64,000 bases of DNA from the NCBI GenBank assembly GCA_012840485.1, contig DULG01000019.1:124001-188000 (forward strand). The letters are read 5' to 3'. The stretch comes from Clostridia bacterium (GTDB lineage: Bacteria > Bacillota > Thermoanaerobacteria > Thermoanaerobacterales > Thermoanaerobacteraceae). The position numbers and the translations under genes are program-made. This document shows positions 16,159-60,139 of this stretch, in pieces (the first letter of the stretch is position 1; every line of letters begins with the position of its first letter). The notes under the pieces are model-generated. The model ran no database searches. It was not told where the DNA came from and saw only the letters and a program-made list of their open reading frames with translations.

Positions 16159-16192
16159 AAGGAAAATTTTCTCCTTTCAGCTATTTTTTTAA
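16149..16192. terminator. Bidirectional terminator between ynbB and the recombinase gene
   Basis: Perfect 15 bp arms AAATAGCTGAAAGGA (16149-16163) and TCCTTTCAGCTATTT (16172-16186) with T7 after it on the plus strand. A shorter U-rich end forms on the minus strand. It separates the convergent ynbB-like and recombinase genes. Confidence 0.88.
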
Positions 16193-17178
16193 TCCTTTTG
16201 TGACAATGGATTTTTATTTACAGCTTCTTTTAATTGCGAATCATCTACATGGGTATAAATTTGCGTCGTAGACACGTTAGAATGCCCTAGGAGCTTTTGT
16301 AAAGTCCTTATATCTACATTACCATACCTGTACATCAAAGTGGCGGCCGTATGGCGCAATTTATGGGCAGAGTATTTTTTACCCTCTAGATTGGCATTTT
16401 TTAAGTGCTTTTTTACAGTATACTGTACAGTTTTAACACTTATTCTTTTAAGCCTTTTACTCAAAAACAAAGCTTTTTTATCTTTTACTCCTTCTTTAGG
16501 TCTTACCTGCAAATACCTATTTATTGCATCAATACAGGCTTCATTTAAGTAAACTGTCCTCTGTTTATTTCCTTTGCCAATGACAGTTAATTTATCGTCT
16601 TTAATATCATCTAAATTTATATTCACCAGTTCAGACACCCTAAAGCCGCAGTTTAAAAACAAGGTGATAATAGCATAGTCTCTTTCTTTAAAAGGTCCAT
16701 CTATGGAGTTTAAAAGTTTTTTACTTTCTTCAAGAGTGAGGTAAATAGGCTGTCTTACAGAAAGTTTTGGTGATTCTAATTCCTGAGTAGGATTTTTATT
16801 TATAAGTTTAGCTTTTTTGTAAAGGTAATTATAAAAAGACCTTAAACTAGCCACTTTTCGAGCGCGAGCAGGGGGAGTATTAGATCTTTCATTTGTGACA
16901 AAATTGAGAAAAGCATATAGGTCGTTTAAATCAACAGATTCTATTAAATCAATATCAACATCAGAAATGTCTATCTCGTCAAATTCAACATTAGGGTCGA
17001 CTTTCCCGTGCCTTTGTTTTAAAAAGCGCAGAAATAAAACCAAATCATAAGCATATGCTTTTACCGTATTAGGAGACCTTGCTTTTACAGTAGAGAAGTA
17101 GTTTAAAAATTCCTCAAGAAGAGAAGGATATTTCATAGTAGAAGTATTATCATGAGCTTCATAATGAGTATCAGCCAT
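16189..17178 (-). CDS. Tyrosine recombinase, XerC/D type, catalytically intact
   Basis: 329 residues, somewhat long for Xer because of an acidic insert (DISDVDIDLIESVDLND, about residues 70-90) in the N-terminal SAM-like domain. The catalytic set is complete: Arg in GFRVSELV, Lys in GKGNKQRT, HKLRH, GHSNVSTTQ and the nucleophile Tyr in IYTHVDDSQ. RBS AAAGGAG precedes the ATG. A 32 bp palindrome overlaps its predicted transcription start. It may be the working Xer enzyme of this cell, since the xerD-like protein at 58.6-59.4 kb has lost these residues. The target site is unknown. Confidence 0.88.
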   Translation of the reverse strand: MADTHYEAHDNTSTMKYPSLLEEFLNYFSTVKARSPNTVKAYAYDLVLFLRFLKQRHGKVDPNVEFDEIDISDVDIDLIESVDLNDLYAFLNFVTNERSNTPPARARKVASLRSFYNYLYKKAKLINKNPTQELESPKLSVRQPIYLTLEESKKLLNSIDGPFKERDYAIITLFLNCGFRVSELVNINLDDIKDDKLTVIGKGNKQRTVYLNEACIDAINRYLQVRPKEGVKDKKALFLSKRLKRISVKTVQYTVKKHLKNANLEGKKYSAHKLRHTAATLMYRYGNVDIRTLQKLLGHSNVSTTQIYTHVDDSQLKEAVNKNPLSQKD

Positions 17179-17202: not shown

Positions 17203-17234
17203 TAATTATACGAAATAGTTATTTCGTATAATTA
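17203..17234. promoter_or_regulatory. 32 bp near-perfect palindrome at the recombinase promoter
   Basis: 15 bp arms TAATTATACGAAATA (17203-17217) and TATTTCGTATAATTA (17220-17234) around a GT centre. On the minus strand it lies about 10 bases after the -10 element, over the expected transcription start, where a repressor would bind. The size also fits a tyrosine-recombinase site. It does not resemble a GAAC-N4-GTTC LexA box. Confidence 0.65.
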
Positions 17235-57367: not shown

Positions 57368-58513
57368 TTACTGATATTTTAACCATCCAAAAAAGATTCT
57401 ATTGAGATTTTCAAAAAAATTAGCCTTTTCTACTATTTCTTTAGGATATAAATCAAATGTCTTTATAACCTTTCCCTCCTGTATTACCTTAACCACACCT
57501 ATTGACATCTTTCTACCTAAAGGAGCAAATATAAAATCTTTTAGTTCCACTTCTGTTTTTATATTTTTACCTTCTCCCTTTTTAATAAGTATATATTCAT
57601 CATTGTAACAGATGGCATTGGTAACCTGCTTTCTCCCTTTTAAAACTTTGACAGTTCCAAAACTTTGCCCTTTTGATGCTACTTTTATAGTTTCATAATT
57701 AGCAAATCCATAGTCCAGTAACTTAGCAGTTTCATTAAATCTCGTTTCTGAATCAGGAGCCCCAAATACTACTGCTATCAACCTTGTATCCCCTCTTTTT
57801 GCAGTTGCCGCCATACAATAGAGGGCCTCTGAAGTAGAACCTGTTTTAATTCCATCTACTCCCTTATAGCGCCATAGCAATTTATTAGTATTTATAAGGC
57901 TAAACTTCCCATTTCTTAGAGAATCAAGCTTATTAGTTAAATACTTAAATATGCTTTCATGTTTCACTAATTCTTGTGAAATCATCGCAATATCATATAC
58001 AGTGGTTAAATGCCCTTCTTCAGGTAATCCCGTGGCATTTTTAAAAGTTGTATTTTTTGCTCCCAATTCTTTAGCCCTTTTATTCATCATTTCAACAAAA
58101 TTTTCCTCTGTACCCGCAATATACTCAGCTAAAGCAACAGAAGCATCATTTGCCGAATTCATCGCTATAGCCTTCATTAAATCATCTACTGTCATTTCCT
58201 CTCCTATTTCTAAATATATTTGTGTACCTCCCATATCAAAGGCATGTTTACTTGTAACAACTTTATCTGTCATTTTAATTTTGCCAGAATCTATTGCTTC
58301 AATCGCCAGTAAAAGAGTCATTACTTTGGTAACACTGGCAGGCGGTAAGGGCTTATGGCTATCTTTTTCATAAAGAATTTGCCCACTACTAGCTTCCATT
58401 AAAATTGCAGACTTTGCTTTTAAATTTAAAGTATCGGCATAAGCTGCATTGTCTAAAATAAAAGTAATAGACACAATTAAACTTATTATCATCGTTAAAA
58501 ATCTTTTAAACAT
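57368..58513 (-). CDS. dacF: D-alanyl-D-alanine carboxypeptidase DacF
   Basis: 381 residues with a signal peptide (about 1-27, ending AYA). Motifs are SVTKVM (SxxK), SANDAS (SxN) and IKTGST (KTG), followed by a PBP5_C domain and an amphipathic end NLNRIFFGWLKYQ. In spore formers it sets cortex cross-linking from the forespore side. The frame opens earlier, but GAGGAGGG fixes the ATG at 58513. Position next to spoIIA marks it as dacF. Confidence 0.94.
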   Translation of the reverse strand: MFKRFLTMIISLIVSITFILDNAAYADTLNLKAKSAILMEASSGQILYEKDSHKPLPPASVTKVMTLLLAIEAIDSGKIKMTDKVVTSKHAFDMGGTQIYLEIGEEMTVDDLMKAIAMNSANDASVALAEYIAGTEENFVEMMNKRAKELGAKNTTFKNATGLPEEGHLTTVYDIAMISQELVKHESIFKYLTNKLDSLRNGKFSLINTNKLLWRYKGVDGIKTGSTSEALYCMAATAKRGDTRLIAVVFGAPDSETRFNETAKLLDYGFANYETIKVASKGQSFGTVKVLKGRKQVTNAICYNDEYILIKKGEGKNIKTEVELKDFIFAPLGRKMSIGVVKVIQEGKVIKTFDLYPKEIVEKANFFENLNRIFFGWLKYQ

Positions 58514-58568: not shown

Positions 58569-59441
58569 TTAAGCACGAGGATGAAATTTATTATAAACTT
58601 CTTTTATTTTTGATTTTGAAATCAAAGATAGCAAATTTGCATTTAAATCTGTTTGATAACCTAACATTTCTTGAACTGCTCTAATATCTGCACCATTTTG
58701 AAGCATGTGCTGTGCAAAAGATTGCCTTAAAGTATTGGGAGTAACAGCAAAACCAGGGTTAATTCTATCGGTGTACTCTCTTATTATCTTCCAGCATCCT
58801 TGTCTTGTAAGTTTTTGCCCTCTCAAATTTAAAAAGAGGGTGTTTTCTTCATTCTTTGACCTTCTTCCCTTTTTAATGTAATTTTTTAAAGCCTCAATTG
58901 CATGTGAACCTATGGGGATAACTCTCTCCTTATTGGACCTGATAACCACATATCCATAAGAAAGATTTACATCTTCCAATTTTAAGGAAATAACTTCTGA
59001 TACTTTAAGTCCTGTAGCATACATAAGTTCAATAAGTGCTTTATCTCTCAGTCCCTTTTCATCATCTCCAAAATCCAGTGAAAGTAACATATCCACCTGT
59101 TCCACTGTCAACGTCGTAGGTGGCTTCTTTTCCACTTTAGGGGTATTAATCATATAAGTTGGATCTTCTTCTATTTTTTTCTTCATAAACAGATAATGAT
59201 AAAAGGCTTTAAGGGAGGAAAGATTTCGTGAAACAGTCGCTTGTGATTTGCCCTGTTTTTTTAAATAGTATAGATAATTTAGCACTGTCGATTTTTTAAC
59301 AGTCTCATAAGAAATACTAAGACCTTCAAGATAATTTAAAAATTGTTTTATATCTCTATTATAAGATTCTAAAGTGTTTTTAGATAACTTTTTGTTTCTC
59401 TTTAAAAATTCTAAAAAATCCCCCACCACATTATTTAACAT
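58569..59441 (-). CDS. XerD-like tyrosine recombinase homologue with degraded active site
   Basis: 290 residues, full XerD length and architecture, open throughout. The N-terminal SAM-like domain spans about 5-95. The C-terminal domain keeps ADIRAVQEMLG and ends EVYNKFHPRA, as in XerD. The catalytic residues are mostly gone: the first Arg is Lys146 (ATGLKVSEV), HxxR is Asn236-Arg239 (PNTLRQ), the LGH His is Tyr262 (LGYQTD), and the nucleophile Tyr aligns with Leu271. Only the Lys (about 171) and second Arg remain. It should be unable to cut DNA. It sits in the usual xerD-dacF position. Confidence 0.9.
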   Translation of the reverse strand: MLNNVVGDFLEFLKRNKKLSKNTLESYNRDIKQFLNYLEGLSISYETVKKSTVLNYLYYLKKQGKSQATVSRNLSSLKAFYHYLFMKKKIEEDPTYMINTPKVEKKPPTTLTVEQVDMLLSLDFGDDEKGLRDKALIELMYATGLKVSEVISLKLEDVNLSYGYVVIRSNKERVIPIGSHAIEALKNYIKKGRRSKNEENTLFLNLRGQKLTRQGCWKIIREYTDRINPGFAVTPNTLRQSFAQHMLQNGADIRAVQEMLGYQTDLNANLLSLISKSKIKEVYNKFHPRA

Positions 59442-59515: not shown

Positions 59516-60139
59516 TTATACTGAAAAAATAGGCAAAAGTAACACATATGGCGACAAATAAGACTCTATTAAGCAACCTATCAATATGATTAAAAATCCT
59601 GCATACACCATAAAGGTATAAGATATAAATTGGGATATCAATTCTTTAAAGTAAAACTTGCGATTCTTCAAAAGATATAATGAAAAATTAATTGCTGTAA
59701 CAGATATGAATAAGATTCCTAATAAGATAAAAATATTCTGAGGTAAAATTCCCATCAAAACAAGTAATATCCCTTTACCATTAAATTCTTTTATCAAAAT
59801 TCCAATAGAAAAGCCTAAAACAAAACCTCTTATTCCAACTAAGAAAAAGATAAAAGGAATACCTATGATTGTGGCTCCTAAAATCCATAGAACAAAAACA
59901 GTGACAAAATTGTTTAGAAGAGATTGTTTAAAAATCTGTGAGGAATTTAAATCGATAGATTTCGCAATTTGGTAAAATTTCGAAATATATTGTACTATTT
60001 GCTCTTTTTGAATATCAGTAATATTATTGACAGTAAAAGCTCCTGCTGCTATCCCAATCATTAAAGACATTAAAACAAAAACATACAAGAAAAAATTATT
60101 TTGAATATGCAAATAAATGTTCCCTTTTAAACTTTTCAA
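59516..60139 (-). CDS. spoIIM: Stage II sporulation protein M
   Basis: 207 residues, about five membrane segments. FFLVGIRGFVLGFSIGIL and GILPQNIFILLGILFISV are family sequence. With SpoIID and SpoIIP it drives septal peptidoglycan removal and engulfment. The start is TTG with AGGGGGA upstream. It is next to the xerD-like gene, as in Bacillus, and has a sigma-E promoter. Confidence 0.92.
   Translation of the reverse strand: MKSLKGNIYLHIQNNFFLYVFVLMSLMIGIAAGAFTVNNITDIQKEQIVQYISKFYQIAKSIDLNSSQIFKQSLLNNFVTVFVLWILGATIIGIPFIFFLVGIRGFVLGFSIGILIKEFNGKGILLVLMGILPQNIFILLGILFISVTAINFSLYLLKNRKFYFKELISQFISYTFMVYAGFLIILIGCLIESYLSPYVLLLPIFSV

Follow-up and report, generated by a model that had tools for sequence, protein, structure and literature searches.

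The window, by which we mean the whole 64,000-nucleotide stretch of DNA analysed here, carries psi-xerD, a gene for a XerD homologue predicted to lack a working active site, at positions 58569–59441 on the minus strand. Its reading frame is intact, running from an ATG start through 290 aa with zero internal stops, and it is flanked on the same strand by spoIIM upstream (59516–60139) and dacF downstream (57368–58513, with the start set at the conserved MFKRF), an arrangement common to both genera, g1 and g3, in which the gene was found. The spoIIM–dacF slot is the usual place of active xerD in Firmicutes. The full length, unbroken frame, fold motifs, XerD C-terminal ending and xerD place before dacF were all as described in the original prediction, which had been made from the sequence of the window. 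An intact tyrosine recombinase gene of a separate lineage, xer, lies 41 kb from psi-xerD (16189–17178, minus strand), a perfect 28-bp palindrome lies between xer and rnhA (17205–17232), and ftsK with a C-terminal gamma domain (about 2339–2521) is found at 422–2563 on the plus strand.

Family assignment and active site of psi-XerD

By profile, structure and phylogenetic place, psi-XerD is a XerD homologue. It scored 325.3 bits against the XerD model TIGR02225, below the curated cut-off of 329.6, and matched Pfam Phage_integrase at 2e-35 and the XerD structure PDB 1a0p at 2e-54. An AlphaFold2 model (mean pLDDT 86.5, pTM 0.62) gave XerD as the top PDB match in Foldseek, with TM-scores of 0.44–0.54 to Xer structures, and these low values were put down to how the model positions its two domains against each other, in keeping with its pTM. 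A search of the same genome returned no XerC-like match and no XerD besides psi-XerD, so that the other intact XerD for which the original prediction had advised a search was not found there.

The catalytic set R-K-H-R-H-Y of tyrosine recombinases reads K-R-N-R-Y-L in psi-XerD, with five of the six residues differing, two of them by Arg/Lys swaps. On the minus strand, catalytic Arg I is replaced by Lys at codon 146 (59004–59006), the catalytic Lys by Arg at codon 168 (58938–58940), His II by Asn at codon 236 (58734–58736), His III by Tyr at codon 262 (58656–58658), and the nucleophile Tyr by Leu at codon 271 (58629–58631), leaving R239 (58725–58727), at the Arg II position, as the sole unchanged residue. 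Four of these substitutions (K146, N236, Y262 and L271) had been called exactly in the original prediction, which understated the loss by the fifth. Residue 168 aligns with E. coli XerD K172, a column holding Lys in 132 of 137 intact XerDs, Arg in the window and in all copies of genus g1 (9/9), and Lys in all copies of genus g3 (9/9); it lies in a hairpin that is two residues shorter.

Judged by these residues, psi-XerD is almost certainly no longer able to cut DNA. Continued catalysis through another nucleophile is hardly credible: the hydroxyl residues Y262, S272, S275 and S277 lie near the lost site and could be proposed for that part, but both His, the Tyr and Arg I are all gone, and the 264–269 loop is variable among copies and poorly predicted in the model.

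Spread, phylogeny and selection

Within family f1, psi-xerD was found in 10/10 genomes of genus g1, which takes in Thermoanaerobacter (T. thermocopriae, T. wiegelii and others) and Caldanaerobacter subterraneus, and in 9/9 genomes of genus g3, which appears to be Thermoanaerobacterium. Open frames were present in 18 copies across the two genera, with 60–92% identity to the window protein. In all 18, His II is replaced by Asn or Ser (Ser in genus g3), His III by Tyr, and the nucleophile by Leu or Ile, and Arg I is Lys in every open copy except L020, which retains Arg. In T. wiegelii (G002, locus L008), a 1-bp deletion in a T run near L008 6600–6612 splits the frame, and could reflect either a genuine loss in this strain or an error of sequencing.

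Among 137 XerDs surveyed in the rest of the phylum and in family f4 (apparently Caldicellulosiruptor), the H-R-H-Y set was complete in 136. The lone exception, L230 in G176 (family f85), has Lys at Arg I, Phe at His II and Tyr at His III, retains the nucleophile Tyr and has an altered C-terminal tail; the degraded XerD of G176 (L238:4041–4934) has the same residues in the congener G281 (L240). The G176 and G281 copies fall apart from the f1 psi-XerD clade in the tree, and on residues and placement they are read as an independent case in an unrelated family. Partial loss was also observed in two other relatives in the order of G176, L246 and L257, in which Arg I is Lys, His II is Gln or Asn, and the Tyr is retained.

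In the same tree, the 18 f1 copies form one clade inside XerD (support 100/100) on a long stem of 0.77, and this placement points to a single origin of the dead XerD. Pairwise dN/dS ratios (Nei–Gojobori, within g1 and within g3) were 0.037–0.163 for psi-xerD and 0.029–0.106 for intact xer; these ratios are rough, since many dS values are saturated, and none is near 1.

Using 75 positions at least 90% conserved in the 137 intact XerDs as a reference set, 53 were kept in all 18 copies, 11 were changed in all, and 11 were mixed. Nine of the 11 positions changed in every copy fall within residues 236–271, the catalytic stretch, and the retained positions include R213-Q214-G215-W217-K218 in the region of the TRQ motif, a DNA-contacting element of XerD, and Y283-H287-P288-R289-A290 at the C-terminus. 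A further 13 positions are invariant in psi-XerD copies and rare among intact XerDs. This pattern reads as that of a protein freed from catalysis yet still constrained, with its putative DNA-reading and docking elements retained.

The kept, non-catalytic protein of the original prediction is borne out by the alignment and dN/dS comparison that it had called for, as the substitutions are shared across the clade under strong purifying selection. It had also set out when the gene should be taken for a recent pseudogene or sequence error, namely if close relatives had an intact active site or if strains carried stop codons; no open close relative has an intact site, and one strain, T. wiegelii, does have a broken frame. 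That deletion, together with the absence of the gene from genus g2 and families f2 and f3, is what a decaying pseudogene or assembly error would have in its favour, and such an account is very improbable against 18 open frames in two genera with dN/dS of 0.04–0.16, the same three sites lost in all of them, and the 13 clade-specific invariant residues. As a general account it is refuted, and psi-xerD is, as far as its sequence tells, neither a sequence error nor a fresh pseudogene; T. wiegelii alone may carry a real pseudogene.

The intact recombinase Xer

Xer has the full catalytic set (R180, K202, H272, R275, H299 and Y308), in agreement with the original prediction that the recombinase at 16189–17178 has all its residues, and it is the sole full-length catalytic Xer found in the genome. 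Its lineage lies apart in the tree from XerD and from the second Xer-type proteins of other sampled members of the phylum. None of the XerC, XerD, XerA and XerS models gave Xer a score reaching its cut-off, the value being 152.8 bits against a cut-off of 267 for the XerS model PRK05084.

FtsK had been named in the original prediction as another possible partner of psi-XerD; its gamma domain was present in all 17 genomes tested, with or without XerD, and was rejected as a discriminator. E183 and E184 of E. coli XerD contact this domain (PMC5052618); psi-XerD has S179-H180 in those columns, which were uninformative as a signal, the XerDs of f4 also being without the two glutamates. As a separate observation, three tandem tyrosine recombinase genes resembling a recombinase-trio element were seen at G016:C1:584347–587106 and G011:C1:81545–84326, near a CATAACC...TTATG repeat.

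A palindrome at the GC-skew switch

The palindrome at 17205–17232 has an 11-6-11 layout, ATTATACGAAA-TAGTTA-TTTCGTATAAT, and no comparable palindrome was found in shuffled sequences. It lies at the GC-skew switch of the window, where the skew flips sign near xer from +0.19 on the left to -0.25 on the right; in G004, the switch is at 1.2213 Mb (within the 400 kb read). Of 24 genomes of the order, 23 yielded the core, TATACGAAATA-NN-TATTTCGTATA, with one mismatch in G015, two in G021 and none in the others; in the remaining genome, G023, the contig starts inside xer. The palindrome was 63–1765 bp from the skew extreme in 8/8 genomes measured, and at 0.48–0.64 of the chromosome in eight complete genomes whose numbering apparently starts at the origin. 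The site and psi-xerD are 36–56 kb apart, with both xer and psi-xerD near the terminus.

Two genomes of family f2 separate the palindrome from xer by 6.6 kb (G020) and 2.7 kb (G021) and place it between convergent genes, and there the skew switch tracks the palindrome (63 and 278 bp, respectively) and not xer. A role as a mere xer operator was therefore rejected in favour of a putative dif. With one exact copy per genome, found at the terminus and near xer, the palindrome has the appearance of a dif used by a single recombinase, and is a candidate dif for the whole order.

Searches for other sites were carried out alongside. The canonical Firmicutes dif, ACTTCCTATAA-N6-TTATGTWAACT, had no match in G000 with up to three mismatches, and the two three-mismatch matches in the order and one in f4 were no better than a reversed-pattern control. 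A looser XerD-arm pattern gave scattered matches, the conserved ones inspected being coding or intergenic-stem-like. Near the G004 terminus, 15 of 47 XerD-arm motifs lay within 50 kb, against 7 of 41 for the reversed control, which is not clearly enriched, and this half-site search around the G004 terminus gave no psi-XerD binding site. The palindrome was not found in viral contigs. Copies with two or three mismatches occur elsewhere in some genomes, and a second relative of the palindrome at that level of mismatch (TATACGAAATCATAATTTCGTATA type) recurs across the family, at G002:C1:805252 and in similar places in G000, G001, G012, G013, G014, G016, G017 and G018. In f4, an intergenic 19-bp inverted repeat (CCCATAATTCATATTATGT) is conserved in L074, L077, L082 and L083 near position 1500.

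Fate of XerD in related lineages

The genomes of genus g2, like those of families f2 and f3, have no XerD. The f2 genomes have dacF immediately after spoIIM, with no gene between; in g2, the slot between them holds an unrelated 203-aa ORF; and in f3, dacF has different neighbours. By eye, the g2 ORF (L105, reverse complement 787–1395, G001) resembles DUF445 proteins. All three lineages carry the same Xer, with the same palindrome wherever the flank was readable. In the Xer tree, g2 stands beside g3 (support 83/86), suggesting that the XerD copy lost from g2 had been dead beforehand. These XerD-less lineages, together with the T. wiegelii frameshift, imply that any role of psi-XerD is dispensable or replaceable.

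Family f4 retains an intact XerD, and three of the five genomes read have a palindrome, ATTGCACAAAA-N6-TTTTGTGCAAT, immediately upstream of xer (G034:C1:1259556, G033:C1:1287584 and G029:C1:1374843); a fourth has it with one mismatch. Its layout is the same as that of the candidate dif, and it lies within several kb of a blurred skew switch. A palindromic site is thus not by itself a predictor of XerD decay, and it may predate the decay of the XerD active site.

The symmetry of the site and its presence in lineages without XerD bear on the proposal, made in the original prediction, that psi-XerD is a structural partner of the other recombinase. Such a partner would sit on one dif arm and, itself making no cuts, hold the intact Xer within a mixed tetramer. 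The retained C-terminal tail (KEVYxKxHPRA type) and TRQ motif would suit such a partner, as would the location of xer and psi-xerD near the terminus, with 36–56 kb from site to psi-xerD. In the XerCD scheme, the second strand exchange needs a catalytically active partner; a dead one could not perform it, and another enzyme would be needed to resolve the junction. The two arms of the candidate dif are, moreover, identical, and this same site and Xer occur in relatives that lack XerD altogether, both of which make the partnership less likely. The proposal is weakened to the point that we consider it quite unlikely.

Discussion

The reading we prefer is that psi-XerD has probably been retained for a function other than catalysis, once the single Xer had assumed the resolution of dimers. 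An ancestral XerD would have lost DNA cleavage and stayed under selection as a DNA-binding protein, a pseudo-recombinase. Xer alone would resolve chromosome dimers at the palindrome, in the manner of XerS and XerH, each of which acts at a site of its own, and once Xer had taken over there, XerD catalysis would likely have become dispensable and free to decay. The palindrome at 17205–17232 and the GC-skew switch, which the original prediction had not seen, suggest in this way why catalysis could be lost. The retained psi-XerD would still bind DNA without cutting it.

What psi-XerD would do once bound is a narrower question. XerD unloads SMC complexes near the B. subtilis terminus (Karaboja 2021, as cited in PMC8357415, PMC12322038 and PMC13342612), which makes unloading the simplest retained role and the likeliest job for psi-XerD, followed by a regulatory one in which the protein, by sitting on DNA, would control Xer or the expression of genes. 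By this analogy, a specific SMC or terminus job is a possibility that we hold tentatively. A role at the terminus beyond recombination, conjectural for psi-XerD, would be what the two proteins share, the B. subtilis unloader being, unlike psi-XerD, a full recombinase. The most specific form of the reading, in which psi-XerD would be dedicated to the terminus and would act there without cutting, in the simplest case as an SMC unloader, and would hence be a natural separation-of-function form with its recombinase activity removed and its chromosome-organising activity kept after a single Xer and a palindromic dif took over dimer resolution, is somewhat doubtful.

Alternatively, psi-XerD may be a DNA-binding transcription regulator, perhaps of its sporulation-linked neighbourhood (spoIIM, dacF and spoIIA), a reading that we regard as unlikely. 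The gene lies between spoIIM and dacF in both genera, and no terminator was predicted between psi-xerD and dacF, but this slot carries little weight, being also that of active xerD in Firmicutes, and no operator was found. The path from recombinase fold to repressor does have a precedent in MrpR (YopR), the repressor of prophage SPbeta, which has a tyrosine-recombinase fold with Arg and His losses that include the same His-to-Asn change (PMC10516654). Like psi-XerD, MrpR combines a recombinase fold with lost catalytic residues, and it shows no recombination activity; it is phage-encoded, less than 25% identical to recombinases, and keeps the Tyr and Lys, whereas psi-XerD is a chromosomal XerD ortholog.

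Compared with known systems, psi-XerD resembles XerD/RipX (TIGR02225) in length, two-domain fold, TRQ motif, HPRA ending, position inside the XerD clade and spoIIM–dacF slot, and differs in having lost Arg I, the two catalytic His residues and the nucleophilic Tyr, in the Lys-to-Arg change in g1, in a score just below the curated cut-off, and in a genome without a detected XerC. Xer and its palindrome resemble XerS/difSL and XerH/difH in pairing one Xer with an atypical dif-like site that lies at the terminus, close to the gene for that Xer, and differ in that Xer belongs to another lineage (153 bits with the XerS model, cut-off 267), the 28-bp site is perfectly symmetric and is a candidate known from sequence, and the genome still carries a dead XerD.

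Dead recombinases and single-Xer systems have each been described before; what appears new is their combination, with a dead XerD retained by vertical descent next to a single-Xer system. A literature search, with subscription papers mostly outside it, found no description of this dead XerD or of the palindromic site, and the Xer/dif pair of these thermophilic anaerobes is apparently an undescribed single-recombinase system with a directly testable site. For annotation, the likely error is that dead xerD genes are recorded as encoding active recombinases. XerD is usually viewed as a recombinase, and a clade that conserves it without catalysis would provide a natural test of the roles of XerD besides recombination.
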